From Bacteroidales bacterium (GTDB taxonomy: Bacteria; Bacteroidota; Bacteroidia; Bacteroidales; JAIPAH01), in contig JAIPAH010000005.1 of the NCBI GenBank assembly GCA_021740175.1, forward strand, positions 1 through 47,484: 47,484 nt of DNA, in the 5' to 3' direction. The translations under genes were made by a program, and so were the position numbers. The notes below the pieces were generated by a model. It made no database searches. It saw nothing but the letters and a program-made list of their open reading frames with translations, and was not told where the DNA came from. Shown piece by piece: positions 5,858 to 47,484 of this stretch (position 1 is its first letter; each line of letters begins with the position of its first letter).

Positions 5858-6017
5858 GGTTTCTTTTTTTAGATAACCACAAAAATAAGAATACGCTGCA
5901 TTTCGTGGACTATGGCAGGAAATATTTAAGCATTTTTCGTCGGTCTAAAAACAATTTTTGCAAGCTACCTTGATTGCCTCACAGTTTATCCTGACATTTG
6001 CGAAAAAGCAAAATCCT

Positions 6018-6857
6018 ATGAAAATATCAACGGTCATAGCCGATACCTGGAAAATGGATGGTGGGGTATGTTTTGGTGTAGTGCCCAAAACTTTGTGGCG
6101 CAAGCATTATCCCGAAGCGGGAGATAACCTTGTCAATGTTGTCTCGCGTTGCTTGGTGGTTGAGACGGAAGAAAGAGTCTTTTTGGTTGATGCCGGTATG
6201 GGGCGAAAGCAAACGGCCAAATATTATGGCTACAAATACTTATCCCCGGAAGACGAGCTTCTCCAAAACCTTTCACGTTTGGGATATAAACCGGAAGACA
6301 TTACCGATGTTCTGCTTACTCATCTGCATGATGACCATGTGGGAGGAGCTTCCAGGCTTAACGAAAGCGGAGAGCCTGAGTTGCTATTTCCCAATGCCCG
6401 CTATTGGGTTAGTCTCAATCAATGGCAATGGGCCCGAAATCCCAATAAACGCGAGCAGGCTGCCTTCCTGGAAAAGAATCTGACTCCTTTGGCTGAATCG
6501 GGGCGCCTTTACCTTGTGGAAGAAGACAGGGAGCTGGCTGAGGGTTTCTTCGTGAAACATTTTTCCGGTCATACCAGCGGGATGCTTGTCCCCTATATTA
6601 ACTATAAAAACCGGTTTTTGGTATTTGTATCCGATTTAATTCCATTAACCGGCAACCTCCCGGTGGTTTATCTTGCCAGCGTGGATATACAGCCGCTGGT
6701 AGCTATGGAAGAGAAAGAAAAATTCCTTGAGGAAGCTGTGAAAAATGCTTATGTACTGGTTTTCGAGCATGATTACTACACCGAATGTGCCACATTAAAA
6801 AGAACAAACAAGGGGTATGCCTTGAATGAAACTTTTACTTTGCAAGAGTTAGGGTGA
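6018..6857 (+). CDS. MBL-fold metallo-hydrolase
   Basis: TDVLLTHLHDDHVGG, FSGHTSGM, FVSDLIPL; ATG at 6018. Confidence 0.9.
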   Translation: MKISTVIADTWKMDGGVCFGVVPKTLWRKHYPEAGDNLVNVVSRCLVVETEERVFLVDAGMGRKQTAKYYGYKYLSPEDELLQNLSRLGYKPEDITDVLLTHLHDDHVGGASRLNESGEPELLFPNARYWVSLNQWQWARNPNKREQAAFLEKNLTPLAESGRLYLVEEDRELAEGFFVKHFSGHTSGMLVPYINYKNRFLVFVSDLIPLTGNLPVVYLASVDIQPLVAMEEKEKFLEEAVKNAYVLVFEHDYYTECATLKRTNKGYALNETFTLQELG

Positions 6858-6931
6858 ATGATTCATATACTTTCTCCATTGATAATAGGAGTTTCAAGGA
6901 TAGTGGCATACGTGTCTTAAGAAATAAAAGA

Positions 6932-7250
6932 TTCAGAACTCCTGACTTGCTTCATGAAATTCAATAATTTTACTGTCATCCCGATGAAAAATTAGACATT
7001 ATGTTTTATGGCGCATCAGGAGTTCTGAAACTAATACTTACATATGGGTTTGGGCAGCCAGAGGCCCGCCCGTACCGAATCCCGAGCCTTCGGGATTCGG
7101 GCGGGCTGCAAGAATTCCGGGTCAAAACGAAGACGTTTTGACGAACCTCTCTAACGTTGATTGTACGGCCTAAACGTTAGACGAAGCGTCATCGCTTCGC
7201 CTTCTTTCATTTTTTAAGTTTACCCGATTTTTACAAGCGGGCCTCTGGCT
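6932..7250. repeat. Dispersed multi-hairpin intergenic repeat, copy A
   Basis: IR TTCAGAACTCCTGA (6932-6945)/TCAGGAGTTCTGAA (7016-7029); IR AGCCAGAGGCCCGC (7056-7069)/GCGGGCCTCTGGCT (7237-7250); segment from about 7011 to 7190 recurs inverted at about 21990-22110. Confidence 0.75.
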
Positions 7251-7323
7251 TCTGAAAATGATTAACTTTGTACAAAGTTGTATTTTATGGAAACTGAAGG
7301 ATTCAAAATATCATTAAGTTATA
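7249..7323 (+). repeat. Direct repeat (leader and first codons of antitoxin), copy 1
   Basis: 7249-7315 matches 12058-12124 with one mismatch (67 nt); homology continues after a 3-nt indel. Confidence 0.9.
7264..7279. promoter_or_regulatory. 16-bp perfect palindrome AACTTTGTACAAAGTT overlapping TAACTTTG -7-like element; putative VapB operator
   Basis: Sequence identical to its reverse complement; 7 bp upstream of ATG 7287; repeated at 12073-12088. Confidence 0.5.
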
Positions 7324-7535
7324 ATCAAATACGCGAATTGGTACGCCAGTTACCAAAAGAGGAAAAGCTTCAACTCAGTAAGGAATTGGCTAAAGAAACT
7401 ATTGATATAAGACTAAGCCGATTGCTTAAGTCATTCAAAACGGATGAGCTCACTCAAGATACTATAGATAAAGAGGTAGAGAGAATACGAAAAGAAATCC
7501 ATGAAGGAAAAAGATATAGTCAGGATTATCATTGA
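7287..7535 (+). CDS. VapB-like antitoxin
   Basis: METEGFKISLSYNQIRELVRQLPKEEKLQLSKELAKE; precedes PIN-toxin-like ORF. Confidence 0.65.
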   Translation: METEGFKISLSYNQIRELVRQLPKEEKLQLSKELAKETIDIRLSRLLKSFKTDELTQDTIDKEVERIRKEIHEGKRYSQDYH

Positions 7536-7940: not shown

Positions 7941-8107
7941 TTACCTAAACAACTCCTTAATATCCCCGGCACTCATGTTCCGGAACGGGTCGTTGGAATT
8001 GATGAAGGTCTCGGCCAGTTTCGACTTTCGCTCCTGGAGCTTGTAAATCTTTTCTTCGATGCTTCCGCGGGAAATCAGGCGGTAGACAAAGACGTTTTTC
8101 TCCTGGC
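7941..8107 (-). pseudogene. Duplicated 3' end of SNF2 helicase gene (last ~55 codons)
   Basis: 167 nt collinear with 12886-13052; QEKNVFVYRLISRGSIEEKIYKLQERKSKLAETFINSNDPFRNMSAGDIKELFR. Confidence 0.9.
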
Positions 8108-8632
8108 TGACGGGGGCGAGGGCACGGTCGATGCACTGGTGGCTGCCGCCGGAGGCACAAAAACGAAAGTACACGTGCACGACCCGCTCATGCGGGAAAT
8201 AGAAGCCGAATATGGTATCATTCACAACGATACGGCAGTCATCGAAATGGCGGCGGCTTCGGGACTGGAGCTGCTTTCCCGTGAAGAGCGAAATCCTATA
8301 ATTACCACCACTTTTGGCACCGGCGAACTTATCAGGGAAGCTATCCAAAAGTGCTACTCCCGTATCATCGTCGGGGTGGGTGGCAGCTCTACCAACTCGG
8401 GAGCCGGTATGGCGGAAGCACTCGGAGCTAAACTTTACAATAAGGAGAGTGAGGAAATTAACAAAGGAGGGACTCGCTGGGCAAACTAGCCTCGATTGAT
8501 CTTACCGAAAAGCCCGTAAGGCTCGAAGAGTCCATGCACAACGCCGAAAGGCTGCTGATACAGGCGGCGGCCAGAAAGACCCGGAGCCTTATGATCGGGA
8601 AGAAGTTACCGAATAAGAAACCTAAAATATAG
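8106..8632 (+). pseudogene. Glycerate kinase remnant (5' truncated, frameshifted, internally deleted)
   Basis: ADGGEGTVDALVAAAGGTKTKVHVHDPLMREIEAEYG...VIEMAAASGLELL...TTTFGTGELIREAI...VGVGGSSTNSGAGMAEALG, then apparent 1-nt deletion near 8470 (GG(D)SLGKLASIDLT in another frame), then C-term-like RLEESMHNAERLLIQAA. Confidence 0.85.
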
Positions 8633-8637
8633 AGAGT

Positions 8638-9436
8638 TTGATTGGAGCGATTGCCGGTGATATCATTGGTTCGGTGTTTGAAGCGATGCCCGTGAAAACC
8701 AAAGATTTTCCGCTTTTCCAGTCGCAAAGCCGCTTTACCGACGATTCGGTGCTGATCATAGCCATAGGAAAAGCCATTATCGATAAAGGTTCCTACCTGG
8801 AGTACGTCAAAAAAATCGGGCGAAGCTATCCCCATTGTGGGTATGGGGCTTCTTTCATTCGTTGGCTTCTCTCGGAAAGCACCCGGTCCTACTATAGTTT
8901 TGGTAACGGCGCCGCTATGCGGGTTTCGCCGGTGGGATTTGCTTTTGAAAGTGAAGAACAGGTCTTGCAGCAAGCCCAAAAAACCGCCGAAATAACCCAC
9001 AATCATCCCGAAGGCATTAAGGGAGCACAGGCCGTTGCATTAGCCGTATACCTTGCCCGCCACCGTTACAAGCAAAACGAAGATACGCAGCACTCTTGCC
9101 GCAGAGTTTGAGTATGATCTTGACAGGACCGTCGAATCCATCCGTCCCTCCTACCATTTTGATGTCACCTGCCAGGGTTCTGTACCGGAAGCCATCATCG
9201 CTTTCCTCGATTCGGAATCGTATGAAGAGGCCGTGAGAAATGCTGTTTCATTGGACGACGACAGCGATACGCTGGCCTGTATGGCAAGGGCAATAGCAGA
9301 AGCTTTTTACAGGGAGATTCCCAGCGAAATACTCAGACAAATTCCAACGCTTTTGTCGAAGGAGTTATGGAATTATACGATGGAGTTTTATCAATCCCAC
9401 GGTATCCGCCGCATCAAAAAACACATCCTGAACTAA
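8638..9436 (+). pseudogene. ADP-ribosylglycohydrolase family gene, frameshifted
   Basis: TTG-start MIGAIAGDIIGSVFEAMPVKTKDFPLF...RFTDDSVL (8638-9111), continued in another frame as IRSTLAAEFEYDLDRTV...AVSLDDDSDTLACMARAIAEAFY (to 9436). Confidence 0.85.
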
Positions 9437-12885: not shown

Positions 12886-15828
12886 CTACCGAAACAACTC
12901 CTTAATATCCCCGGCACTCATATTTCGGAACGGATCATTGGCATTGATGAAGGTCTCGGCCAGTTTCGACTTTCGCTCCTGGAGTTTGTAAATCTTTTCT
13001 TCGATGCTTCCGCGGGAAATCAGGCGGTAGACAAAGACGTTTTTCTCTTGGCCGATGCGGTGAGCGCGATTAAGGGCTTGTTGCTCGGCGGCCGGATTCC
13101 ACCACGGATCAAGGATAAATACATAGCCTGCAGCCGTGAGGTTCAAACCGGTTCCCCCGGCTTTTAGGGAAACAAGAAAAAATTTAACTGTTTCATCTTC
13201 CTGAAACTTATGAACTTCCTCCTGCCGGTTGCGGGTCTGGCCGGTGAGCATGGCAAACGGATACCCTTGTTGCCTGAGATAGCGCGAGATAAGCTTGAGA
13301 TGTTCGACAAATGAAGAAAAGAAAATAGCCTTGTTTCCCTCGGCACGTAGTGATTCAATCGTCCGGAGCACCTCGTTGAATTTGCCGGAATCGCCTTCAT
13401 ACTCTTCATCGGCCAGCACCGGGTGATTCGACATCTGGCGGAGCCGTAGAATAGCTTCCAGCACCTGCATCCGGTGTTCCTGCAAATCCTGGTCGAGCAG
13501 GTTGTCGATGAGGCTGTTGCGAATACCCGATTTATAGCGCTCGTAAGCCTCGTACTGTTCCTCGGTCATCTCGCAGTAGTACACCTGCTCGGACAACGGT
13601 GGCAACTCTTTGGCCACATCCGTCTTTTTGCGCCGTAACAAGAAAGGCCGGATAATCCGGTTAAGCTTATCCTCCTGGGCTTCATCCTTCTTCCTTTCGA
13701 TAGGGGTGACAAACTTCTCGATAAAATTGCTGTAATTCCCCAGTAAGCCCTCGTTCAAAAAATTCAACTGCGACCAGAGGTCGGTCAGGGAGTTTTCGAT
13801 AGGCGTTCCGGTAAGCACCATTCCATGTTCGGAAACCAGAGAGGTTATCGCTTTGTAGGTTTTCGACTCAGGGTTTTTCACATACTGACTTTCATCGAGA
13901 ATGATGTAGAAAAAACTAAACGCCTTCAATGCTTCACTATCAATTCGGGCTACACCATAACTGGTGAGTATGAGGTCGTATTCAGGAAATTTTTCTATCA
14001 AACCTTCCCGCTTTCCACGGAAAACCAATACCTTCAAGTGGGGGGCAAACTTAGCAATTTCGGCTTCCCAGTTGTGCAGCAGCGAGGTGGGCATGATCAC
14101 CAGGCTGGTTTGCGAATGTGACGTATCCTCTGTTTCCTTGTCAAACATGGAGAGTTGATTTTCGGTAGCCTTCGGTTTGGTGGGAGCATTATCGCCTTCT
14201 TCCTCAGATGCAGCTTTGAGTAACAATGCCAGGGCCTGTACGGTTTTTCCCAGTCCCATATCGTCGGCCAGGCAACCACCGAAGCCATGTTGATGCAGAT
14301 GGTACAACCATGCATAGCCTTCCTTTTGGTAAGGACGCAGTCGGGCTTTCAAACCCTCCGGCGGCTCGATGTCTTTTTCAATGCGGCGGGTATAAAGCTG
14401 TTCCAGGCTCTCCGAAATTGGCGACTCCTTTTCAACCCCGGCATCCTCAAGCAAGGTGTAATGGAATTTCCGAATCAGCAGATTTCCTTCCTCTCCTTCG
14501 CGGGCATAGGTAATCAAATCGGCATATTGTTCAAACCATTCATCGGGAATGATAAATGTCGATCCGTCGGGTAGTTTGTAAAACTTCTCTCCCTTTAACA
14601 GATGGTTTCTTAGATTAATAAACGGGATTTCGAATTTCCCGGCCTTAACCTTGGCATACACATCAAACCAGTCGTTGGTTTCGTCTCTAAGGGTAGTGTC
14701 GAACCGAACCGGCCCGATATGATATTTGGGCGCTTCGCTACTACGAATCAGGGTAAAACCGGCTTTTGAAAGTGCGGCGGAAAGACGGTTAATCCAGGTA
14801 ACCAACTTAATCCCGTCAGTATCTTCCTTATCCAGGAAAAAGTAAACCCCGTCCCGGGATTGCAATTCATGTTGTTTTAGCTTTTTTACGGCTTGTTGTT
14901 CGCTTTCATAATCGCGGATGATCTTATCATAATGTATACCCTTATCTTCATACAGCACAACCAGGTTTTTCTTATCATCCGATGGCAAAACCTTCTTTTG
15001 GAGGTAATCAAAACTCAACTCCAGGCTGATGCTGCCGCTGATATCTTTGGTAAGCGTCAGTTTCCATTTCGGTTCGGGGCGATGCTCCTGTACCTCAAAG
15101 CCTTCGGCAATGACATCATAATCGCGCACCACTTTTTTTACAAATCCTTTAAAGTATTGCTCTTCGAGGCGTTTGGGGACCAGTATGTAATCCTTTGAGA
15201 AAAAGGGTTTTAACTTCTTACCATCAAACTGACGGAATGTTACCAAGGTATCATTGATCACCACAGCACAAGGTTGAAGGGATAGAAAAATGTGTGAAAA
15301 CCCTTTCAATGTGTTGGAATGGCCATTGTATGAGTACTTCATAGAATAACGTATGCCCTCATCAGTGTATCGGAAGTGAAAAAGAGGCTCAGCAAAACCA
15401 TTCTGTACGTAAATTCTTTCAGTCAACTGCAGGTTCAAACCTTGTCTTTCCTTTAATAATACAGGAATTTTCGTCTCTTTCAGCCATTCCACAATATGGT
15501 AGACTTTTTTCTGAACATAGGGCCGGATGTAATTTTGGGCATAATCATCCGGCACCGAATCGTAGAATTGCTGAATCCCCTTGTTTTTGTATCGGTTGGT
15601 CCGGGCAAAGCGCCTGAGGATTTCCGTATCGCTGTATTCGCCGGTCAACCGAACCACTTTAGCTTCCAATTCCTCCCATTCATCACCATCAACATCCTGC
15701 GCGGTAAGGTTATCCTGAATCTTCCACGCTTCTATTTCGGGGTTATATTCAGCCAAAAACGGCTTGAAAATATACCCGAGCACTCTGTGATATTGTATGG
15801 CAATGATTAGCTGCTGAGTCATCCGCAA
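12886..15828 (-). CDS. SNF2-family DEAD/DEAH-box helicase
   Basis: GFGGCLADDMGLGKTVQAL, LVIMPTSLLHNW, ILDESQYVKN, VLTGTPIENSLTDLWSQ, LVSLKAGGTGLNLT, LDPWWNPAAEQQALNRAHRIGQ. Confidence 0.96.
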   Translation of the reverse strand: MRMTQQLIIAIQYHRVLGYIFKPFLAEYNPEIEAWKIQDNLTAQDVDGDEWEELEAKVVRLTGEYSDTEILRRFARTNRYKNKGIQQFYDSVPDDYAQNYIRPYVQKKVYHIVEWLKETKIPVLLKERQGLNLQLTERIYVQNGFAEPLFHFRYTDEGIRYSMKYSYNGHSNTLKGFSHIFLSLQPCAVVINDTLVTFRQFDGKKLKPFFSKDYILVPKRLEEQYFKGFVKKVVRDYDVIAEGFEVQEHRPEPKWKLTLTKDISGSISLELSFDYLQKKVLPSDDKKNLVVLYEDKGIHYDKIIRDYESEQQAVKKLKQHELQSRDGVYFFLDKEDTDGIKLVTWINRLSAALSKAGFTLIRSSEAPKYHIGPVRFDTTLRDETNDWFDVYAKVKAGKFEIPFINLRNHLLKGEKFYKLPDGSTFIIPDEWFEQYADLITYAREGEEGNLLIRKFHYTLLEDAGVEKESPISESLEQLYTRRIEKDIEPPEGLKARLRPYQKEGYAWLYHLHQHGFGGCLADDMGLGKTVQALALLLKAASEEEGDNAPTKPKATENQLSMFDKETEDTSHSQTSLVIMPTSLLHNWEAEIAKFAPHLKVLVFRGKREGLIEKFPEYDLILTSYGVARIDSEALKAFSFFYIILDESQYVKNPESKTYKAITSLVSEHGMVLTGTPIENSLTDLWSQLNFLNEGLLGNYSNFIEKFVTPIERKKDEAQEDKLNRIIRPFLLRRKKTDVAKELPPLSEQVYYCEMTEEQYEAYERYKSGIRNSLIDNLLDQDLQEHRMQVLEAILRLRQMSNHPVLADEEYEGDSGKFNEVLRTIESLRAEGNKAIFFSSFVEHLKLISRYLRQQGYPFAMLTGQTRNRQEEVHKFQEDETVKFFLVSLKAGGTGLNLTAAGYVFILDPWWNPAAEQQALNRAHRIGQEKNVFVYRLISRGSIEEKIYKLQERKSKLAETFINANDPFRNMSAGDIKELFR

Positions 15829-32861: not shown

Positions 32862-33575
32862 ATGAATAATTTAATCCTTTTAGACATTGATGGAACCTTA
32901 ATAAAAGGAAAATTCAAAAGATCATCAGAAGCATTTTATGAAAATATTAAAATGCAAGCTATTAAAGAAGTGTATAAAATTAATGTTAATATCGATTGGA
33001 GAATTATTCAAGGGAAAACAGATCAGCAAATTATAATAGATGCACTTACTGAAGCTAACCTAAATAGATATTATATTAAACAATACCTTAATAAATGTAT
33101 TGACACTATTATTGAAAAATTTGCTGATAATTTGGATGACTATTATGCTGAACCTTTACAGGGAGTAAAAAATCTACTTGATATCTTTAGGGCAAAAGGC
33201 GAATTGATAGGATTGGTTACCGGAAACATTGAGAAGGTCGCTAGAATGAAATTAAACAAAGCGGGGATTATGGATTATTTCGAATTTGGGGGTTTTGGGA
33301 ATGAAGATATTCTCAGATCTAAGCTTATTAGAAATGCCATTGATAAAGCTTCTTCATCTTCTAAATTCCAAAAAAAGGATAATGTTTACTATTTCGGAGA
33401 TTCTCCAAAAGATATACAAGCAGCTAAGGAAGCAAATGTCTATTCAGTAGCTGTTGCAACAGGAGTTTATGATGTAAATGAATTAAAAGAACATCAGCCC
33501 GATATACTGATTGAAGAATACTCAGATTCATCTATAAATAAAGTAATTAAAAGCATATACTATAATAATTATTAA
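32862..33575 (+). CDS. HAD-superfamily hydrolase
   Basis: LLDIDGTLIKG, GLVTGN, YYFGDSPKDIQAAKEANV. Confidence 0.9.
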   Translation: MNNLILLDIDGTLIKGKFKRSSEAFYENIKMQAIKEVYKINVNIDWRIIQGKTDQQIIIDALTEANLNRYYIKQYLNKCIDTIIEKFADNLDDYYAEPLQGVKNLLDIFRAKGELIGLVTGNIEKVARMKLNKAGIMDYFEFGGFGNEDILRSKLIRNAIDKASSSSKFQKKDNVYYFGDSPKDIQAAKEANVYSVAVATGVYDVNELKEHQPDILIEEYSDSSINKVIKSIYYNNY

Positions 33576-33648
33576 AAATTGGATATTAGATTTATAAATA
33601 AGGCTAAACAAAAATTTTATAATATCTGAAATATAAATAGATGTAATA

Positions 33649-34029
33649 ATGGAAATTATCAGGGATGGCATTACTAATACTAAAGAAGATGGTACAATTG
33701 TTACTTATTATATTTTCCCCGAATATGAAATCCATTACAACAAAATGCCGCCAGGTGTAGAGCAGAAATGGCATTATCACGATGCTATTGAAGAAACCAT
33801 TTATATTATTGATGGTGAAATAGATATTCTATGGAAAGAAAACAATCAATTTAATAATCAGAAAGTTGTGCCAGGTAATATTGTAAGAGTGGAAAAAACA
33901 TTGCATACAATAAAAAATAGCTCGCAATATAATGCTAAATTTATTGTATTTCGTATGATCTTATCAGGTACTGATAAGAGGGATGTAATAAAGAAAGATA
34001 AACACATCATAAATAATAAAAATACGTAA
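33649..34029 (+). CDS. Cupin-domain protein
   Basis: KMPPGVEQKWHYHDAIEETIYIIDGEIDILW...VVPGNIVRVEKTLHTIKNSS. Confidence 0.88.
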   Translation: MEIIRDGITNTKEDGTIVTYYIFPEYEIHYNKMPPGVEQKWHYHDAIEETIYIIDGEIDILWKENNQFNNQKVVPGNIVRVEKTLHTIKNSSQYNAKFIVFRMILSGTDKRDVIKKDKHIINNKNT

Positions 34030-34054
34030 GTAGTTTTAATTATTTTAGATCAAA

Positions 34055-35362
34055 ATGAAAGGATTTAAAACTTTACCGGAAATAGTATTAATAAAACCAC
34101 CGATACCCTATCACATGGCGCCTTCGGAACAGCAGCCTTTGGGTATTGCATATATTGCCTCTCAAACCAGAAAAAAGGGATACCAAGTATCTTTGGCAGA
34201 TTTGGGAGAACTGGAATTAAATGACAATAGCATAGAAAAAATACCTTATGGAGATATTTATGGGCTAACAGCTTCATTTTTAGATTTAAAGGCAAGCCAT
34301 TATATAGCCACTCAGTTAAGAAAAAGGAATCCACAATCAAAAATAATAATCGGAGGACCAGGACCTACTTCTTTACCTGAATTGATAGATTTTAATATTT
34401 TCAATTCCATGATTTTAGGCGAAGGTGAGAATGCGTTCATTGATTTAATAGAAGATTTCCAGGATAGCGGCATAATGAAATCACAGTATTCTGCTTCTTT
34501 TATTCATAATTTGGATAACATTCCCTTTCCAGCCAGGGATTTATTCAGAGTAAAAGGAGGTCGAATATTTTCCTTTGGGGCTTATTATGGAAGTGACAGA
34601 AGTACTGGATTGATTACGAGTCGCGGATGCCCTTATGATTGCGCTTATTGTTCCACTAATGCAATGTGGGAAAGAAAAGTAAGGTTCAGATCGGCTGAAA
34701 ATGTGGTAGATGAAATTGATGAATGTATCAATAAACATAATATAAGACAATTTAGAGTTCAAGATGACAATTTTACTTTAAAAAAAGAGCGGGTTGAAAA
34801 GATTTGTAATGAAATATTAAACAGAAAACTTAATATATATTGGCGATGCTCTACAGCGTCCTCCCTTGTAGATAAAGAGTTGCTGAAATTGATGAATAGG
34901 GCGGGATGTATGGAAATAAGCTATGGGGCGGAAAGTGGTGATCCGGATGTATTGCGACTTATGAACAGAAAACAAGATCCCGAAACTATTGCTCAATCAA
35001 TTGAAAAAGCCCATCAAGCAGGAATTAAAGTGCGCCTGTTTTTCATGGTGGGTTTACCCGGTACGAGCCAAAAAACTGCTGAAAGGGATATTGAATTTTT
35101 AAAGAAAGCAAAACCTGATGCACTAAACCTTGCTGTCTATACCCCTTACCCCGGTAGTGATATTTGGAATAATCCGGGTAAATACGGTGTTACGATTAAT
35201 ACAAAAAACTTTGATTACTATAATATGCATCTTTTTTCAGGGGAAAACAGGAGTATTGATTCTGTTATCTCTTCGAATACCATTGATAAAAAAACTTTGG
35301 AAATTCAAAAGAAAACAGTAATTGATTTTGCAGATAAAAAAGGAATAATTCATAAGTCTTAG
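34055..35362 (+). CDS. B12-binding-domain-type radical SAM protein
   Basis: IKPPIPYHMAPSEQQPLGIAYIAS...IIIGGPGPTSLPE; GCPYDCAYCSTNAMW (CxxxCxxC); EISYGAESGDPDVLRLMNR. Confidence 0.92.
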   Translation: MKGFKTLPEIVLIKPPIPYHMAPSEQQPLGIAYIASQTRKKGYQVSLADLGELELNDNSIEKIPYGDIYGLTASFLDLKASHYIATQLRKRNPQSKIIIGGPGPTSLPELIDFNIFNSMILGEGENAFIDLIEDFQDSGIMKSQYSASFIHNLDNIPFPARDLFRVKGGRIFSFGAYYGSDRSTGLITSRGCPYDCAYCSTNAMWERKVRFRSAENVVDEIDECINKHNIRQFRVQDDNFTLKKERVEKICNEILNRKLNIYWRCSTASSLVDKELLKLMNRAGCMEISYGAESGDPDVLRLMNRKQDPETIAQSIEKAHQAGIKVRLFFMVGLPGTSQKTAERDIEFLKKAKPDALNLAVYTPYPGSDIWNNPGKYGVTINTKNFDYYNMHLFSGENRSIDSVISSNTIDKKTLEIQKKTVIDFADKKGIIHKS

Positions 35363-35409
35363 TTGAATCAGTTTAACTAAATTTAAGCTAATTGTGGTAA
35401 AAAAATATT

Positions 35410-36843
35410 ATGAGTATGAATAAATTAATAATGATTGTGTTTTTTATATTTCAATTTCTTATAGGAGAAGGTGCTAAATATGATAATAATATACCTTATT
35501 ATGCTTTATCATCAGATTTTATTTCAATTCCATTTGATATGAAAAAAAATAACTTGTTTAGTAGAACAGGATTATTGTTATGGCTTAATACTTCAAAAAT
35601 TTTACCTTCAAACAAAAGTGTTAAAAAAGATGATTCTGAGAATATTAAGTATTCATATTTTAATAATATAAAAAAGGATACATTAAGAAAAAGGATTATT
35701 TATGTAAACAAACGTTTTAAAGATTCTATTGATATTGATTTCTCGCATAAAGTTTTCAATAACAAAGTGGATTTTTACAATTGTGTTTTTATTAATAATG
35801 GTAAACTTACATTTAAAAGTTCAAAATTCAATTCTATATGTGCTTTTGAAAGAAACACATTAAGACATGCCCAATTTAGATATTCTACATTTAACTCTTA
35901 TGCTAGTTTTAAGAATTCTAGTTTTACAACTGCAACTGATTTCTATAAAGCACAATTTGATTCTACAGTAAAATTCAATAACTCATTTTTCAATAATGTT
36001 GTTGATTTTAGAAAAGCTTATTTTAACTCAACAAGTTATTTTATTAACGTAAAGTTTGATTCAATTGCAGATTTCAAAAATGCAGAATTTACATCAAAAG
36101 TAAATTTCCAAAAAGCAACGCTACCGGACATTCTAATTTTATCTGATGTAAAAACCAATCAAGAAATTGATTTAACCAGTGCAAAGTTGAAAAATAACAG
36201 CCCTTGTAAAATAAAAATATTAAATACTGATATCAATAAAATAAGATTTCGTTACAAAAGATTTAAATTATTATTTCCAGAAGAAACTCCCTCGGAGATA
36301 AAATCTAATGTTTATCAAAAACTCATTCATAAACAAAAAAAAGAAGGTTTTATAAGCAGTGTGGAAAAACTAGACAAGGAATACCAAGAATTTAAATATT
36401 TAAAAAGCGGAAATTATAGTTTAGTATGGGGACATTTTAAGAATTGGCTTAAAAAAAACTGGTGGGGTTATGGTTATGAAAAAGAATTAATAATTTTAAA
36501 TACATTCATTCTCTTTTTAACTTTTGTTATTATAAATACTTTTATATTAAATTGTGTAACCCAGAATATTTATCATATACCATATATATCTCAATCATCT
36601 AATACCAAATTTAAGAGTAGAAATAATCCTTGGGTCATAGTAGAACAAATTATGAGTCGTTTTGCTAGAGCATTATTATATACAGGTTTTATTTTTTTTG
36701 GACTTAAATTTGATATTAAAAAACTAAACTATAAGGATAACTTACACGGAAAAAAAATTATTAATTTAATTTATTTTTTCCTGATTTACATTATTGGTTT
36801 AATTTGTATTGGCTATCTGGCAAACTTTGTTTTGAATGATTAA
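35410..36843 (+). CDS. Pentapeptide-repeat-like protein with C-terminal transmembrane region
   Basis: Signal-like N-term; FKSSKFNSICAFERNTLRHAQFRYSTFNSYASFKNSSFTTATDFYKAQFDSTVKFNNSFFNNVVDFRKAYF; several C-terminal hydrophobic segments. Confidence 0.75.
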   Translation: MSMNKLIMIVFFIFQFLIGEGAKYDNNIPYYALSSDFISIPFDMKKNNLFSRTGLLLWLNTSKILPSNKSVKKDDSENIKYSYFNNIKKDTLRKRIIYVNKRFKDSIDIDFSHKVFNNKVDFYNCVFINNGKLTFKSSKFNSICAFERNTLRHAQFRYSTFNSYASFKNSSFTTATDFYKAQFDSTVKFNNSFFNNVVDFRKAYFNSTSYFINVKFDSIADFKNAEFTSKVNFQKATLPDILILSDVKTNQEIDLTSAKLKNNSPCKIKILNTDINKIRFRYKRFKLLFPEETPSEIKSNVYQKLIHKQKKEGFISSVEKLDKEYQEFKYLKSGNYSLVWGHFKNWLKKNWWGYGYEKELIILNTFILFLTFVIINTFILNCVTQNIYHIPYISQSSNTKFKSRNNPWVIVEQIMSRFARALLYTGFIFFGLKFDIKKLNYKDNLHGKKIINLIYFFLIYIIGLICIGYLANFVLND

Positions 36844-36938
36844 ATAAATATTAATTTTAATGAAATTTATGGTTCTAACTACCCAATAAATTTGGACAGA
36901 TATTGTAATTTTGGAAGAACCATTAAAATATAACAATT

Positions 36939-38237
36939 ATGAAAACTATTAAGAAAATTCACTACATTTTATTGTTATTGATTATTGTTTTTGCAGTAAG
37001 TTCTTGTAAAGACAAGAAATCAGAAGCAATTAAAGTAGCTTTATTCAAAGCCCCAGCCAGTGAGGCTTTAATTGAGCAAATTCCCAAATTTGAAAAGGAA
37101 ACCGATTTAAAAGTAAAATATGAGATTTTACCTTATTCTGATTTGAAATCCAAATTAGAACAACAGTTTCTAACAAAAAGCGGGGATTATGATGTCATTA
37201 TGGCTGATTGTATATGGATCCCCTCTTTTGCAGATAGAGACTATCTTGGAGTCTTAGATACAACAGCTTATGAGAAGAATTACGATTTCAATGATATCCT
37301 TCCGAAATTAAAAGATTACCTCGGTAGATATCCACACAATGGTTCTTTATATGGTATGCCTTTCATGAGTAATACGCACATGCTTACCATCCGTAAAAAT
37401 ATCGTAAAACCGGTTGCTGATTCATTGGGTTATGAGTTGCCAGGAAAAACCATGGAGTCTGCATGGACTTGGAGTGAATATATGGAGATTTCCAAGGCTA
37501 TTACCCAAAAATATGAACAGGAAAATGTTTATGGCACCTCTTTACAAGCCCGGTCAGGAGCGTGGATAATATATGAATGGTATAGTGAGCTATTTGGTTT
37601 TGTAGAAAATGAAAAAGCACGCATAAACGGTTTACCCGAATTCAACGAAAATACAAAACAGGCTATACAATATTATGCTGACCTTTATCAAAATGCAGCA
37701 CCAAAGGCAGCTCTTACCTGGGGACATGAAGAAGAGACCAGTGCGATTTGTTCCGGTAAATGTGCAATGGATGCAACCTCAAATGTGGAGTTAGCTGCCA
37801 GCTTTTTCGATAGGGATTGTAATGCTCAGGAGCTTAAATTTGCATTTCCACCGATAGGGAAATCAGGACAGGCCTCACCGGATATGGGCGGATACGGACT
37901 ACTGTTAAATAAATTCAGTGATGATAAGGAAAATGCCAGTAAATTTATTATGTGGGCTGCAAGCAAAGAAATACATACTAAAGTCGTTTTAAATGGCGGA
38001 ACACCGATACGATATAGTGAAATAAGGAATGAAAAGGTGCTGGAAAAATATCCTTATTTTGAGTTTTATGATAAATTAATTGCAAATTCGGTTTATAGAG
38101 CCCGAATACCAAAATGGCCGGAATTACAGGATGTACTATCGAGGGAGTTGGTGAGTGTTATGAAAGAGGAGAAAAGTGCAGGTGAAGCCAATCAGGCTAT
38201 AAAAAACTGGATAAATAATAATATAGCTCAACAATAA
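36939..38237 (+). CDS. ABC transporter extracellular solute-binding lipoprotein (family 1 type)
   Basis: Lipobox FAVSSCKDKK; YDVIMADCIWIPSFADRDYLGVLD; NGSLYGMPFMSNTHMLTIRKNI; DMGGYGLLLNKFSDDKENASKFIMWAASKE. Confidence 0.92.
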   Translation: MKTIKKIHYILLLLIIVFAVSSCKDKKSEAIKVALFKAPASEALIEQIPKFEKETDLKVKYEILPYSDLKSKLEQQFLTKSGDYDVIMADCIWIPSFADRDYLGVLDTTAYEKNYDFNDILPKLKDYLGRYPHNGSLYGMPFMSNTHMLTIRKNIVKPVADSLGYELPGKTMESAWTWSEYMEISKAITQKYEQENVYGTSLQARSGAWIIYEWYSELFGFVENEKARINGLPEFNENTKQAIQYYADLYQNAAPKAALTWGHEEETSAICSGKCAMDATSNVELAASFFDRDCNAQELKFAFPPIGKSGQASPDMGGYGLLLNKFSDDKENASKFIMWAASKEIHTKVVLNGGTPIRYSEIRNEKVLEKYPYFEFYDKLIANSVYRARIPKWPELQDVLSRELVSVMKEEKSAGEANQAIKNWINNNIAQQ

Positions 38238-39076
38238 TGAATTATTTTTCCGTATTATTCGGAAATACCAGGTATTCCATTAAAGTAATGACAACAGGGG
38301 CATTTGCACTGTCTTTACTCGCAGCTATTATGCCCTTTGTTTTCATTATTGTTTCGGCCTTATCGTTGCAGGATTTTAGTTTCTCGAGATTTGTTGATAT
38401 TATTGGAGATCCCCGTCATCTTGCCTCTTTGGCCAATTCCTTTTTCATTGCATTTGTGGCCGCTGTTTTAATCACCTTATTAAGCTTCTTAATAGCCTTA
38501 TTTTTCAGAAAAATCAATTTAACCGGTAATAGGATAATATATGCCCTTGCCATAATACCCGTATTTATCCCTGACCAGGTTTTCGGCATTGCCGGGCGAA
38601 TCGTTTTTGATCCCTCTATTGGAATCTTTGCCGATACTTTTAGTACTTTAATAATTAACAGGTACTCATCACTTGCTTTGGTTGTTTTGTTTGTCATTTT
38701 AAAATGGTTACCATTAATGATAGTATTATGCGATGCAGTAATTAGTTCCATACCAAAAGATGAATACTATCAAACCATTATGGATCATAGCTCGTTTTTC
38801 AGACAAATTAAATATACATACTATCCTTACAGTAAAGGAATTCTGATACTAATATTCAGTATCATGTTTCTGATAGGTTTCCGTCAGCATGAAATGGCTT
38901 TCGAACTTACAAGCAGCGGTGGGGGATTCGTGTCTGAAACATGGTCATTGTGGAATTATAAAGAAATATTTGAGTTTGTGAATTTTGGCAGTGCGGCTAT
39001 TGAGGCGTTGATTGTATTGATATTGTTACTTATACCCATTATAGCAATTAAAAACCAAGCGCAAAAAATTATATGA
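38237..39076 (+). CDS. ABC transporter permease (type I importer)
   Basis: Multi-TM, ANSFFIAFVAAVLITLLSFLIALFFRK...; TAATG coupling with SBP. Confidence 0.88.
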   Translation: MNYFSVLFGNTRYSIKVMTTGAFALSLLAAIMPFVFIIVSALSLQDFSFSRFVDIIGDPRHLASLANSFFIAFVAAVLITLLSFLIALFFRKINLTGNRIIYALAIIPVFIPDQVFGIAGRIVFDPSIGIFADTFSTLIINRYSSLALVVLFVILKWLPLMIVLCDAVISSIPKDEYYQTIMDHSSFFRQIKYTYYPYSKGILILIFSIMFLIGFRQHEMAFELTSSGGGFVSETWSLWNYKEIFEFVNFGSAAIEALIVLILLLIPIIAIKNQAQKII

Positions 39077-39903
39077 AGTTGGTTTTAAATCCATATAAAA
39101 GTTCTCGTTACACCATGCTTATTATTATGGCTATCATAACCCTGATAATACCAATGCTACTTTTCTATGTCGGATTAAAACCCGGAGGAATCAACTTAAA
39201 CAGTGCCATTGCAAGTTCTGAATTCACATCGGAGAATTATGCCAAGTTATTATTCGGTAGCTCGGCAGGAGCTGAAGTATTCAGAGGCAGTATTCTGAAC
39301 AGTATTGTTTATTCTGCAATTGCAAGCTTTTTTGCCACACTTTTTGCTTTGATTGCCGGTGTATGGATTAGCGGGTATAACAAGAAAACCGCTGTGGGAT
39401 TGACGTTTATATTACTAACATTAGTACTTTTACCCCAAACCTATCTGGTATTAGCTGGTTTGAAGATTATTGGACATGTGCCGTTTTTAGAAAGTGAATC
39501 TATTCGTATAGTTTTTTTCCTGTTTCTTAGTGTTATCCCCTTGTCTATATGGTTTTTCTATTTTATGGGAGGTGAAAAAATTCGTCAAATGCTCACCTTA
39601 GTTGCCCTTGACGGAGCAAATACCAAGAAAATGATGTGGCTGATTTATAAGAATATAAAGATAGAAACGTTAATAGTTTTCTTATTTACATTTGCATTTG
39701 TATGGGGAAATTTCTTAATTCCATTTGCATTTGGCTCTACTGATAGTTTTACGGCCACGGTACAAATAAGTTCTTTTACTACTCATCTAGGAAAGGATTG
39801 GGCATCTATAGCAGCTGCTGGTTTTACAATGTTAATACCGTTAATATTAATAATAGTAGTCATAAAACTTTATAATTATGAAAATTACAGAAGACTCTCT
39901 TAA
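39073..39903 (+). CDS. ABC transporter permease (type I importer)
   Basis: RGSILNSIVYSAIASFFATLFALIAGVWISGYNKK; EAA-like LVALDGANTKKMMWLIYKNIK; ATGA overlap with upstream permease. Confidence 0.9.
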   Translation: MKLVLNPYKSSRYTMLIIMAIITLIIPMLLFYVGLKPGGINLNSAIASSEFTSENYAKLLFGSSAGAEVFRGSILNSIVYSAIASFFATLFALIAGVWISGYNKKTAVGLTFILLTLVLLPQTYLVLAGLKIIGHVPFLESESIRIVFFLFLSVIPLSIWFFYFMGGEKIRQMLTLVALDGANTKKMMWLIYKNIKIETLIVFLFTFAFVWGNFLIPFAFGSTDSFTATVQISSFTTHLGKDWASIAAAGFTMLIPLILIIVVIKLYNYENYRRLS

Positions 39904-42208
39904 ACAATTTAAGACTGAATTGAACAAATTCTTGAGTGATTTATCTAAGTTTGAAAAACTTTCTGATATTCAGATCTATTTAAATTATTTTAATTTGTAT
40001 TTATATTCAATTGAATTATTATCACAAGGTAAAACCACAGATGCAATAAAGAAATTATGGGAAAATATCGTAAATAAACCTAATGGTAAAGAATCCGAAC
40101 TTTATATTAAAAGTTTTGGTGAAAAATCTTACAAACTTGAATTAGAAAAATCAATATTGCATGATATTTATTGGAATAAGTTTAAAAATAAATCTGTTTA
40201 TAAATATAACTATACTTTGATTACAATGGTATCTTTGGTAATCTTTCTTAATAAAAAAGGATTATTACCTGAAATGTCTCATAATCCAGCTAGTTATATA
40301 AAAAGTTTACTAAGTGATATATTACCTCACATTATATTCGAAGACCCCCAAAATTTAGGAATTAACACCTTACTATCAAATAAGCTAAATTCAATTGATA
40401 AAGATGTTTGGGATAAAATCTTAAGACGACCACAAACTGAGATTACTTTTTATTATTGGCCAAACATTGATCATAACTTTTATGCTACAGATTCAAATAT
40501 CTATTCAATACGAAGTTTCATCAAATATAAGAATTCAAATATAAATCTTAAAGATACATACATTATTGATGCTAGTAATGACAATATACTCTCGTATGAT
40601 CAATATAACTTTCGTTTTGATCAAGTATTAAGAAATAGATATGATAAACCTGATTTGTTTTTGATTGATTCAGTGAATCTTCCAGAGTATTTAGAAAAGG
40701 GTATATTAACAGGTACAAATACATTTTTTACTACTAGTATAGAAAGTACCTTAGATAAATTGTCTAAGCAAGATCAAGAGCTTGCCAAAACTATAAATGG
40801 TACACGGGAAGCTATCCCTTTGACAAGAAACTTTAATATTGTTGGATTTTCGAAAAATCTGAAGAATAGAGATGATTTTGATGATGCACTCGATAAAGGC
40901 ATTCATGATATGTTAAACAATGATGACATGACATTTAAGATAGATAAATGTTTAAGTCATTTAAAAATCAAAAACTTCATGAGCTTATTTAAAGGTCAAC
41001 AATACAAGTTAAAAGAAGGATGTTTTTCAACTTATGATATAGGCAGCAATAATTTGGTTATTCCAATGCAATTAGCAAAGGGAGCACATACAGCTTATAC
41101 TTTTTTCGCATACTTTGCAAATACTTATAAAGAGGAAGATAGAAATCAATATGAGAGTTTTATACACATAGAAAAACACAGTGATGATGAGGAGGAAGAA
41201 GAAATAGAAAAAAAATATTGTTACTTACCGAACAAGAATACTTCAGTTGAAGCATTTATTGATTTTTTTAAGTTGTTATTTAATTATGTTCCTATAATAT
41301 CTTTATTTATGGATCAAAAATATTCAGCAATGTATAGGACTAAGAGGGAATTGAAATGGTTTGATCCTTGTTTACCTATTGAAGCAATCAAATTTCAAAA
41401 GGATAAAATTATTAATATAAAACGCTCAAAAAGTGCTGAAAACAAACTAGAACCAGCCACCTCTCTAAATCAATATGATAAAAAAATGTCTTGCTTAGGA
41501 GGTTATGTAATTTCTTTATCAAAAGAAAGTAAAGAGCCATTTCAAGCAGTGGATTTTTCTATAGAACTTGCTCAGGAATATTTGAAAAAGGTCAAAGACA
41601 ATGCTAAAATTGAAAATATAAAAGACACAGATGTGGTTACAAAAATAAATTATAATGTCCTAAATGAAACAGAGAAAAAAGAGTTATATGAAGATAATAA
41701 ATACTTCAACACACCAGAAAATATTGCAAAAAGGCCTAGTGTCAGTCAATGGAAAGAAATTGAATCTAAGATTTCAGATTTGATAAGACCATATTCATTT
41801 GCGGTTTTCTTATTAAGAATATACACTTCTCTTATTCAATCTGTGGATTATCAGAACCAATCATTAGATACACAATCAATTGTTAATGAAATAGAGGATA
41901 ATTTTGATAGTATTCTTGCAGTCATTGAACAAAACATCAATACTTTCTTTAAACGTGACATATCTGATGACGAAGAAATAAATCTTAAAGAATGGATAAA
42001 AGATAATCTTAATGATATTAAAGCCAATAAACTTTTTATTTTAAGCCTTATTCGAATGCTAACAGATGAGAAGCTTCCGAAAGAAAATTATGATAAAAAA
42101 ATTGATAAGGTTATTGAGCAATTTGCAGAAAATATTACAGATTCTCTTTATCAACGAATAGCAAGTATATGTTTTAAAAGCGATTGGAATAGAGAATTTG
42201 AAATATAA
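39878..42208 (+). CDS. Large SBP-like protein without recognisable signal peptide (776 aa)
   Basis: Overlaps permease stop by 26 nt; order of ITFYYWPN, YDQYNFRFDQVLRNRYDKPDLFLIDSVNLPEYLEKGIL, INGTREAIPLTRNFNIVGFSKNL, AHTAYTFFAYFANTYKEE, VEAFIDFFKLLFNYVP, CLGGYVISLSKESKEPFQAVDFSIELAQEYL, YFNTPENIAKRPSVSQWKEIESKISDLI parallels family-1 SBPs. Confidence 0.65.
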   Translation: MKITEDSLKQFKTELNKFLSDLSKFEKLSDIQIYLNYFNLYLYSIELLSQGKTTDAIKKLWENIVNKPNGKESELYIKSFGEKSYKLELEKSILHDIYWNKFKNKSVYKYNYTLITMVSLVIFLNKKGLLPEMSHNPASYIKSLLSDILPHIIFEDPQNLGINTLLSNKLNSIDKDVWDKILRRPQTEITFYYWPNIDHNFYATDSNIYSIRSFIKYKNSNINLKDTYIIDASNDNILSYDQYNFRFDQVLRNRYDKPDLFLIDSVNLPEYLEKGILTGTNTFFTTSIESTLDKLSKQDQELAKTINGTREAIPLTRNFNIVGFSKNLKNRDDFDDALDKGIHDMLNNDDMTFKIDKCLSHLKIKNFMSLFKGQQYKLKEGCFSTYDIGSNNLVIPMQLAKGAHTAYTFFAYFANTYKEEDRNQYESFIHIEKHSDDEEEEEIEKKYCYLPNKNTSVEAFIDFFKLLFNYVPIISLFMDQKYSAMYRTKRELKWFDPCLPIEAIKFQKDKIINIKRSKSAENKLEPATSLNQYDKKMSCLGGYVISLSKESKEPFQAVDFSIELAQEYLKKVKDNAKIENIKDTDVVTKINYNVLNETEKKELYEDNKYFNTPENIAKRPSVSQWKEIESKISDLIRPYSFAVFLLRIYTSLIQSVDYQNQSLDTQSIVNEIEDNFDSILAVIEQNINTFFKRDISDDEEINLKEWIKDNLNDIKANKLFILSLIRMLTDEKLPKENYDKKIDKVIEQFAENITDSLYQRIASICFKSDWNREFEI

Positions 42209-42231
42209 AATAAAATTATAATTATAAACTT

Positions 42232-43110
42232 ATGGATGTAAATATATTTTCTATCTGGGTATCAATAATAGGAGCGCTTTTTGTTATTGTTTTGTCAATT
42301 AAAATTACTATCAATAGTATTATCTTAAATTACAGTGATAAAAGCAAAGACTTGAAAGAAAACATAAGTGATATAATAAATGAGTTACAGAAAGATATTT
42401 ATAGTTTATCTGAACAATTAAATAAAGAGTCTAAACTACCAAATATTGAAAAAACAAAATCTGAATTTGATAAAATATATTCATCATTACTTGAAATAGG
42501 TAACAAAATCCTGTATGAATATAAAAGTCTGGATTATAAAACACTAATATATCGATTAAAAAATGACGTGTTTTTCTATTCATTAAGAACGAGTATTTTG
42601 TTATTAAAAAGTAGATACGAAGATCTTCAAACTAAATATACTTTACCTGCTATTAATAAAGAGATAGAGAATGCTAATATTTACGAAATATACGATGACT
42701 ATAATAGCAACGATGAAAAACTATATAATATGACTAAAATATTCGTTCGAAAGTATACTAATGTTGAAAAAATTAATCATATTGAAGAAAATATAAAGGA
42801 TTATTCGAAATTGGCAAGCCATCAATCATTTCTAAATAAAATAAATAAAAAAGTTAATCAAACAATTCTCATTTATTTTATATCTTTAATCACTTCAATA
42901 TTAGGACCAATTTTATATATTCATAATGAAATTAGGTTAAGTTATTCAATTCTACTTTTCGGTCTTATTATATTTCTTTTGATATCATCAATTACTTGGT
43001 TATCAAAGTATGAGAATATGGAATCCAAAGGTTTTGTTGTATTTTATTATATTTCAATTTTCATCAGTATTATTATTAGTATATTATTTTATTTTTTTCA
43101 TTCATTCTAA
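42232..43110 (+). CDS. Membrane protein of unknown function (one N-terminal TM, coiled-coil-like middle, about three C-terminal TMs)
   Basis: Intact 292-aa ORF between SBP-like gene and ATPase; hydrophobic IFSIWVSIIGALFVIVLSI and ILIYFISLITSILGPILYI...SILLFGLIIFLLISSI...VVFYYISIFISIIISILFYFF. Confidence 0.75.
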   Translation: MDVNIFSIWVSIIGALFVIVLSIKITINSIILNYSDKSKDLKENISDIINELQKDIYSLSEQLNKESKLPNIEKTKSEFDKIYSSLLEIGNKILYEYKSLDYKTLIYRLKNDVFFYSLRTSILLLKSRYEDLQTKYTLPAINKEIENANIYEIYDDYNSNDEKLYNMTKIFVRKYTNVEKINHIEENIKDYSKLASHQSFLNKINKKVNQTILIYFISLITSILGPILYIHNEIRLSYSILLFGLIIFLLISSITWLSKYENMESKGFVVFYYISIFISIIISILFYFFHSF

Positions 43111-43125
43111 TTTGTAACTTCGCTT

Positions 43126-44175
43126 ATGTTAGAGTTTAATAACCTAGAATATAAAACGCAAAATATAATTATATTGTACAATTTTACTTTAATAGTGAAT
43201 AGAAGTATAATTACTGGAATTATTGGACCCTCAGGTTCTGGTAAAACAACTTTGCTTAGAAATATAGCTGGAATAGTCACTCCTACAAATGGCAATATTA
43301 AATTTGATAAAAAGAAAATAAATCCTGTACCCGTTGCAAAAAGACCCATTTCCTATCTTCAACAATCTTTCCCATTATATGAGCGATTGACGGTAATGGA
43401 AAACATACTGGTTAGTTACAAAAAGGTTCAAAAGAAAGATATAGAAAAGACAAAAAATCTTCTCAATGAGTTTTTTATCAAAGAAGAGCAATGGAATAGA
43501 GTTCCGCTAAATTTGTCGGGAGGAGAAAGACAACGTATAGCCCTGATCAAAGCTATGATGAAACCTGCCGATATATTGCTTCTGGATGAACCTTTCAGTA
43601 ACCTAGACAAAAATTTAAAGAATAAAGCCTCTGCTATATTGATTAATCATATCAGAGAGAACAATAAAATTTGTCTATACGTCACCCACGATGAAAGTGA
43701 AGTGATTCTGAATTCGGATAAGCTTGTCGTTCTTGAGGACGGAAAACTTATCCAGGAAGGCACGCCTGAAGAACTTGTTAACCAACCATACAACAGTAAT
43801 ATAGCCTCACTTGGTAATCCATTAGGCTTGCAAAGCATTGAAGTGTCAATGCTTCCTGATAATACGAATCTGCATTATCCGAATAGTGTAAAAAAGCTTG
43901 CGTGGCATCCTCATAAAAGCAAATTAGTGGACTACTCCCATAAAGAAACCGTAACCTCTGACATCATGCTTCCAATGCAAATAGAGCAAATTAAAAAATC
44001 CGCGAACCGTGTGTTATACGCCTTAAAACCACTTAATGGGAAAGCAGATCATCTTTTACTTTGGCATGAATTTTATGGAATGAATTATAATTATACGAAG
44101 AATCAAAAAGTAACGCTAAGGGTAGCTAAAGAAGACATTATTAAATTGGATGAAAATAATAAAGTAGTCAACTAA
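43126..44175 (+). CDS. ABC transporter ATP-binding protein
   Basis: IIGPSGSGKTTLLRNIAG, LSGGERQRIALIKAMMKPADILLLDEPFSNLDK, LYVTHDESE; TOBE-like C-terminus. Confidence 0.96.
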   Translation: MLEFNNLEYKTQNIIILYNFTLIVNRSIITGIIGPSGSGKTTLLRNIAGIVTPTNGNIKFDKKKINPVPVAKRPISYLQQSFPLYERLTVMENILVSYKKVQKKDIEKTKNLLNEFFIKEEQWNRVPLNLSGGERQRIALIKAMMKPADILLLDEPFSNLDKNLKNKASAILINHIRENNKICLYVTHDESEVILNSDKLVVLEDGKLIQEGTPEELVNQPYNSNIASLGNPLGLQSIEVSMLPDNTNLHYPNSVKKLAWHPHKSKLVDYSHKETVTSDIMLPMQIEQIKKSANRVLYALKPLNGKADHLLLWHEFYGMNYNYTKNQKVTLRVAKEDIIKLDENNKVVN

Positions 44176-45321
44176 ATGAACGATTATTACAGTATTTTAT
44201 ACGATATAGATTTTTTCTCAACAGATGAATATAAAAATGAATTAGGCAAATCAAGTATTAGTGTGAATAATCCAGGTAAGATTGAATGGAACTCCTGGAT
44301 TGACGGAAATATAAACGGACAGGAAGCAAAATCCATTTTTGAATCGAATATTGAAAATTTTAATCAAAAGAAAAACCTTGAATTACTTACAGAACAAAAA
44401 CCAGAAGAATCATATCTTATAACGTTATTGATCGCAGAATATGCTTATAGAAATAATAATGAAAAATTATTTCTCAATTCTTTTGCTTTGTTAATTAAAT
44501 CTCCTTATCAAAATATAAAGTTAAAGGCTGTAAAATTATCTCATGCCTTTTACTCACTAAAAATGTTAGTTGATAATTTAAAATATAATACTGAAGCTCA
44601 ACTTAATCGTATTGAAAAAATTCAGAATCATGCTTTATCATTCCTTAATCAAAGATTTGAACAGAATTATAAACAAAAGGATATTAAAGTTGAGAAGTCC
44701 GTTAAAAAGGAATGGTTAAAGCACAATATGAATTTTTCCGATCCAAAAAGACTTGAAAACTTTTATAAAACTACCTCTTCCTATGTACTTGAATTAACTG
44801 CTGCAAATCATCAAGTAGAAACACTTTTTAACTATTCGTTGGTTATTAAAAAATTAAAGGAATTAGGAATTACACATCTTTATGATTATGCAGGCGGTAT
44901 AGGCACCTTTGTTTTAATGGCCAAGCTTAACGGATTGTCAGTTGCCTTCTCTGAATTAGATTCTATAACAAGAGAGTATGCTATACAAAGAATTAATGAT
45001 TCAGGGGATGACATGGATTTCCACGTTATTGAATATGACTCACCGGACTTAGAGGATAATCAAGGATGCATCGTCTGTACAGAAGTTCTGGAACATATAT
45101 ATGAACCGGAAAAACTGGTTGAATACTTCTATCAAAAATTAAAGTCAAATGGCATTTTGGTTGTCTCAGAATCTTTTGACTATGTAGAAAACTTTTGCAC
45201 CCATTTACCTAAACACAAAGGAAAAGGAGGTAAGAATTTTATCAATTACATGAAAAAGGTGGGTTTTGATTTAATTCCATTGAAATATCAAACCCACCCT
45301 AAGGTTTTCAGAAAAAGATAG
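44176..45321 (+). CDS. Class I SAM-dependent methyltransferase with long N-terminal extension
   Basis: HLYDYAGGIGTFVLMAKLNGLSVAFSELD; CIVCTEVLEHIYEPEKLVEYFYQKLKSNGILVVSE; starts immediately after ATPase stop (TAA|ATG). Confidence 0.88.
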   Translation: MNDYYSILYDIDFFSTDEYKNELGKSSISVNNPGKIEWNSWIDGNINGQEAKSIFESNIENFNQKKNLELLTEQKPEESYLITLLIAEYAYRNNNEKLFLNSFALLIKSPYQNIKLKAVKLSHAFYSLKMLVDNLKYNTEAQLNRIEKIQNHALSFLNQRFEQNYKQKDIKVEKSVKKEWLKHNMNFSDPKRLENFYKTTSSYVLELTAANHQVETLFNYSLVIKKLKELGITHLYDYAGGIGTFVLMAKLNGLSVAFSELDSITREYAIQRINDSGDDMDFHVIEYDSPDLEDNQGCIVCTEVLEHIYEPEKLVEYFYQKLKSNGILVVSESFDYVENFCTHLPKHKGKGGKNFINYMKKVGFDLIPLKYQTHPKVFRKR

Positions 45322-46965: not shown

Positions 46966-47354
46966 GGTTTTGTTTTTTAATTATAGAGTTTGTTTTATTG
47001 ATTCTGTTTAATAAAAATATGCATTCTTTCAGATATTACAAAAATTTTTTTGAAAAAAATGACTAAATAGAGCTTTAATCCGCTCATGATCTTCTGACAG
47101 TAAATACATTAATTAAGTTATTTTAGTAAATCAATAAGGTTGATTATACGAAGATTTCTGTGGCATCCAACAAATATTTCCCATCATTAGTGATTCTATT
47201 CCAGTCTAACTGGGAAATTTGACAGAACTGCCATGATATTAGTATCCAATGCATACAATTTCCAATCCGGCAGGTCGGACACATTTATACTACAAAACCT
47301 GTAAATAAGCTAATAAGGTTCATCTTTCACAGGGGATTTGCTTATTGGATATAC

Positions 47355-47484
47355 CGGAGCAAGCTGACCCCCCAATTCTGCCGATAAAAAGGAAGATTTT
47401 TTTCTGTCATTCCGGCGGATGTTGACCCCCAAATCCTGATAATAGGGAAAATTTCCGGAGCATATTGACCCCGGATTATAGCAT
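47355..47484. mobile_element. IS21-family-like terminus (partial, runs off window end)
   Basis: Iterated CCGGAGCAAGCTGACCCCCC / GCGGATGTTGACCCCC / CCGGAGCATATTGACCCC motifs, typical of multi-repeat IS21 ends; transposase outside window. Confidence 0.55.

Follow-up and report, generated by a model that had tools for sequence, protein, structure and literature searches.

An orphan protein with a probable SBP_bac_1-like domain and no export signal, encoded within an ABC importer operon of a Bacteroidales bacterium

The window analyzed here, a 47,484-nt stretch of a Bacteroidales contig, carries an unbroken run of plus-strand genes separated by short gaps (32862-45321). In order, they encode a HAD hydrolase, a cupin, a B12-type radical SAM protein, a pentapeptide-repeat membrane protein, a lipoprotein of the SBP_bac_1 family (designated S), two permeases, a 776-aa protein (X), a membrane protein (Y), an ABC ATPase and a methyltransferase-domain protein. 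S (36939-38237) is the solute-binding protein (SBP) of the importer and matched PF01547 with an E-value of 2.9e-30, and its nearest relatives in the PDB are the sugar/polyol SBPs 5iai and 4rya. Permease 1 (38237-39076) showed similarity of the CysT/Wtp type, permease 2 (39073-39903) is divergent with six transmembrane segments, and the ATPase (43126-44175) belongs to the GlcV/PotA/MalK type of importer ATPases. Y (42232-43110) has a hydrophilic central part flanked by one transmembrane segment on the N-terminal side and three on the C-terminal side, and is separated by 24 nt from X (39878-42208) on one side and by 15 nt from the ATPase gene on the other. The genes of the HAD hydrolase, cupin and B12-type radical SAM protein (32862-35362) and that of the methyltransferase-domain protein, assigned by a family match and the last of the run (44176-45321), flank the importer on the same strand, and these enzymes possibly form a small biosynthetic or modification cassette. 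Directly before the S gene, the pentapeptide-repeat protein (35410-36843, GC content 23.5%) has a hydrophobic segment at its N-terminal end and two transmembrane segments at its C-terminal end.

The reading frame of X starts with an ATG at 39878 and stops at 42206-42208, giving 776 aa, and it overlaps the permease 2 frame by 26 nt. At a GC content of 27%, an open frame of 776 codons has a probability of about 1e-30 of arising by chance, and X is a genuine gene rather than a chance ORF. The N-terminus of X is hydrophilic, and no 19-residue window exceeded a Kyte-Doolittle mean of 1.6 (maximum 1.60, at residue 460), while S, the permeases and Y all displayed clear hydrophobic segments in the same scan. 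Neither a signal peptide nor a lipobox nor a transmembrane segment was found in X by inspection of the sequence and hydropathy, and hydropathy also ruled out a membrane signal anchor that had been considered near residues 112-128. The open frame comprises 780 codons, only four of them upstream of the ATG, so an upstream start that would add a signal peptide is impossible. The coordinates and overlap given in the initial annotation were thus correct, its description of a protein without hydrophobic signal or lipobox was borne out, the upstream start it had named as a possible objection is absent, and its placement of X inside an ABC transporter operon agrees with the gene order and family matches. 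As far as sequence can indicate, X is likely located in the cytoplasm.

The initial annotation had further described X as an apparent homolog of the operon's own SBP. When the two were compared directly, X scored 1.0 bit against S and ranked 88 among X and its shuffles, within the shuffle range; evident homology to S itself was therefore not upheld, whereas a relation to the SBP family was supported by profile tests. The main profile was built from S and 28 Bacteroidota SBP_bac_1 proteins (29 SBPs) with X left out. In hmmsearch X reached 15.0 bits against it (E = 4.3e-7, Z = 1, single test), above all of 2000 shuffles of X (maximum 8.1 bits), and the alignment consisted of two collinear stretches, with X256-316 on an N-lobe stretch and X515-636 on a C-lobe stretch. 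Among 718 ORFs from the same genome, S alone scored above X with this profile and the next reached 4.3 bits. With a wider profile of 69 SBP sequences X obtained 11.4 bits, and still 10.5 bits when S was removed, indicating that detection does not depend on the operon SBP. One further ORF reached 7.8-14.2 bits with the 69-sequence profile and most half profiles; it is a PBP-fold protein (PF12849) and, judged by this family assignment, genuinely related, so that it does not count as a false positive. Besides X, only S and the PF12849 protein exceeded about 8 bits among the 718 ORFs.

The signal was confined to one part of the protein. X186-640 (40433-41797) scored 16.7 bits on its own (E = 1.3e-7, Z = 1), and residues 1-185 and 641-776 scored nothing, in agreement with the domain boundary that had been placed at ITFYYWPN. 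Within this SBP_bac_1-like domain, the N-lobe motifs KPDLFLIDSVNLPEYLEKGIL...NGTREAIPLT occupy residues 256-316 (40643-40825), where HHalign placed X255-334 on the N-lobe with P = 0.002, and X249-330 with P = 0.005 when the wider profile was used. The C-lobe motifs CLGGYVISLSKESKEPFQAVDF...RPSVSQWKEIESKISDLI occupy residues 515-636 (41420-41785; hmmsearch E = 9e-6, Z = 1). Motifs that the first reading had paired with those of S (KPDLFLID..., NGTREAIPLT, CLGGYVISLSKESK... and RPSVSQWKEIESK) fall within these two profile-aligned stretches. The N-terminal region (residues 1-185, 39878-40432) is predicted with very low confidence to be mostly helical, and the C-terminal helical region (residues 641-776, 41798-42208), like it, matched no family.

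An alternative is that the SBP likeness arose by chance or from composition and that X is an unrelated orphan. Besides the chance-level pairwise similarity to S, several results favor it: SBP_bac_1 was not reported for X by Pfam hmmscan (E ≤ 10), X lying below the curated Pfam cut-off for this family (26 bits); half profiles of 34 sequences lowered X to 3.8-11.6 bits; and AlphaFold2, run without alignment depth, gave no confident fold for X alone (pLDDT 31.8) or for X186-640 together with the operon SBP (pLDDT 28.9). Nevertheless, X surpassed its 2000 shuffles and 716 other ORFs, bar the one true PBP-fold protein, profiles built from reversed sequences as decoys gave it no more than 2.1 bits, and the signal is limited to a single domain with the motifs in correct order, which makes a chance match improbable. 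Correction for the roughly 3000 proteins of a genome puts the E-value of X at an estimated value of about 0.001-0.015, so that a relation to SBPs is likely while some doubt remains. We consider X186-640 to be probably, though not beyond doubt, a diverged relative of the SBP family.

No relative of X emerged from any collection searched. X had no match in Pfam, NCBIfam, PADLOC, PHROGs or the PDB sequences, no credible homolog in the sister species of the genus or in 296 genomes of the order, 396 of the class and 255 of the phylum, and no homolog among the plasmid and phage records searched at E ≤ 10. Scanning 85,488 species genomes and IMG/VR by pattern, a method that catches close relatives only, likewise returned nothing. 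The genome samples were partial, and "orphan" is used here in the sense of these searches. The two strongest of the weak matches of X were discarded as a prolyl-tRNA synthetase and a histidine kinase. Y had no credible relative in the searches made, with only insignificant matches in PADLOC, and two weak hits proved to be an FtsX protein and a helicase. No orthologous operon was detected with permease 2 in 296 genomes or with S in 399 genomes, the latter search yielding one SBP of 26% identity whose neighbors included no X-like or Y-like gene. Genome contigs and plasmids also contained no operon orthologous by S, the best plasmid match having about 28% identity. The contig bearing the 26%-identical SBP (G554:C17), from a genome searched as belonging to the same phylum, holds ABC and TRAP transporter genes of the mannitol/sorbitol type with a proteobacterial appearance, and perhaps represents contamination.

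Most known cases of feedback control in ABC importers involve small domains fused to the ATPase. In Bacillus subtilis, Btr (YbbB), in which an AraC part is joined to a FeuA-like domain, acts as a sensor inside the cell through its SBP-like part and is tied to an ABC importer operon; X differs from it in lacking an AraC domain (Pfam, E ≤ 10) and in its SBP class. With SBP_bac_1 proteins (PF01547; for example 5iai and 4rya) X shares remote profile similarity over both lobes in the same order, as well as its place in an ABC importer operon, but it falls below the family thresholds, has neither signal peptide nor lipobox, and carries extra helical regions at both ends, with 776 aa compared with about 430. 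For MetNI and ModBC it is established that substrate exerts trans-inhibition via cytoplasmic domains added to the transporter (PMC10710835). In NrtC, truncation of the regulatory domain, which has a putative nitrate site, abolished the ammonium inhibition of the nitrate importer (PMC6603209), and the C-terminal domain of CmpC, 50% similar to NrtA, is thought to be regulatory (PMC11349869). X resembles these components of the cyanobacterial nitrate and bicarbonate importers in having an SBP-like domain without export signal encoded with an ABC importer, the location of X being deduced from sequence only. Their domain, however, is of the NrtA family and forms part of the ATPase polypeptide, whereas X is a separate, SBP_bac_1-like protein and the ATPase has its own gene (43126-44175). 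The transcription factors SgrR and DsvR are cytoplasmic and have an SBP domain that follows a helical domain at the N-terminus (PMC13060122), an arrangement that X recalls. They consist of a helix-turn-helix and SBP_bac_5, neither of which had a Pfam match in X or its N-terminal part (E ≤ 10), and X thus differs by the lack of a detectable helix-turn-helix family and by an SBP-like domain that matches another SBP family. Compared with NrtC/CmpC, SgrR/DsvR, MetNI and ModBC, X stands out as free-standing, as related to a different SBP family and as accompanied by an orphan membrane protein.

Taken together, an SBP-derived domain, no sign of export and a gene location between those of permease and ATPase point to an intracellular ligand-binding protein that would act on or with the importer. 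We tentatively suggest that X may reside in the cytoplasm, with two helical domains enclosing a strongly diverged SBP_bac_1-type domain, and may serve as an intracellular ligand sensor or regulator of the importer. The profile similarity restricted to one domain, with collinear motifs and a score above all shuffles and unrelated ORFs of the genome, was counted in favor of this reading, and so was the translational overlap of X with permease 2 in a gene set between permease and ATPase. Counted against it were the low confidence of the AlphaFold2 models and the fact that the collections searched contained no X homolog, and hence offered no conservation or transporter linkage. In the suggested mechanism, X would be co-expressed with the importer, and X186-640 would be the intracellular binding domain for the imported solute or for a compound derived from it. 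X might then alter importer activity through contacts of its helical ends or through the membrane protein Y. The outcome would be a substrate-dependent feedback, as with the SBP-like C-terminal domain of NrtC/CmpC. We infer the fold, ligand binding, partners and regulatory role of X alike. A more specific form, in which X is a free-standing cytoplasmic SBP_bac_1-derived subunit at the inner face of the importer, possibly anchored by Y, and gates transport in response to the substrate present inside the cell, appears rather doubtful.

The setting of the operon bears on a different explanation. In the sister species of the genus (one relative), DNA identity of 85% ends exactly at the end of an FtsX-type gene (32408) and different genes follow, showing that the low-GC region from 32409 to the contig end (47484) is absent at that site in this species. 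No tRNA gene or clear direct repeats were found at the borders of the region. The sister genome has several copies of the sequence found at the contig end (about 47346-47472), which in this respect resembles the terminus of a mobile element. X and Y have GC contents of 27% and 22%, lower than those of the genes for S, the permeases and the ATPase (34-37%), and may therefore be later insertions unrelated to transport, which was also counted against the sensor reading. It is conceivable that an SBP-derived domain has been put to another use here, whether enzymatic, as a scaffold or in sensing some unrelated cue (an invader, for instance), with X and Y as accessory cargo in the operon of a strain-specific region. 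This would fit the low GC content that X and Y have in common with the pentapeptide-repeat protein (22-27% for the three), the absence from the sister species of everything from 32409 on at this site, and the orphan status of both proteins. On the other hand, the tight packing between the importer genes, with its 26-nt overlap and its gaps of only 24 and 15 nt, argues for co-function, and PADLOC, which returned nothing for X and only the insignificant matches for Y, provided no support. On balance we regard accessory cargo as somewhat unlikely.

Alternatively, X could be an intracellular carrier or acceptor that passes the solute from the importer to the enzymes of the run, namely the HAD phosphatase, the cupin, the B12 radical SAM protein and the methyltransferase. 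The single-strand arrangement of 32862-45321, with short gaps and enzyme genes on either side of the importer genes, is consistent with such a role, but the literature gave no free cytoplasmic SBP acting as a carrier and we know of none, leaving this quite unlikely. That X is an accessory SBP outside the membrane, exported by an unusual route, is very improbable, as its SBP-like domain and its place beside a normal SBP are outweighed by the lack of an N-terminal signal, a possible upstream start or a transmembrane signal anchor.

Should the more specific reading, with X at the inner face of the importer, be true, the operon would encode an importer with one SBP outside the cell and an SBP-derived sensor inside. 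A separate cytoplasmic protein of this origin would show the recognition module of an importer turned inward as a sensor, and X could in that case provide a natural model on which to base sensors of sugars inside cells. X is a single orphan without relatives, and for now a lead and not yet a family.

Several further features were observed in this genome. An isolated second copy of the C-terminal end of a Snf2-type helicase, in part frame-scrambled, lies at 7941-8348 on the minus strand, about 5 kb from the full gene (12886-15828, minus strand), and its last 54 residues are nearly identical to those of the full gene. At 8638-9436 on the plus strand, an apparent gene of the ADP-ribosylglycohydrolase type, recognized by eye, is divided between two frames that overlap, which suggests a frameshift. 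On another contig of the same genome (C15), a gene at 5704-7383 encodes an unusual fusion of a PBP_like_2 domain, a hydrophobic stretch (about residues 325-345, by eye) and a GcvH lipoyl-type domain.
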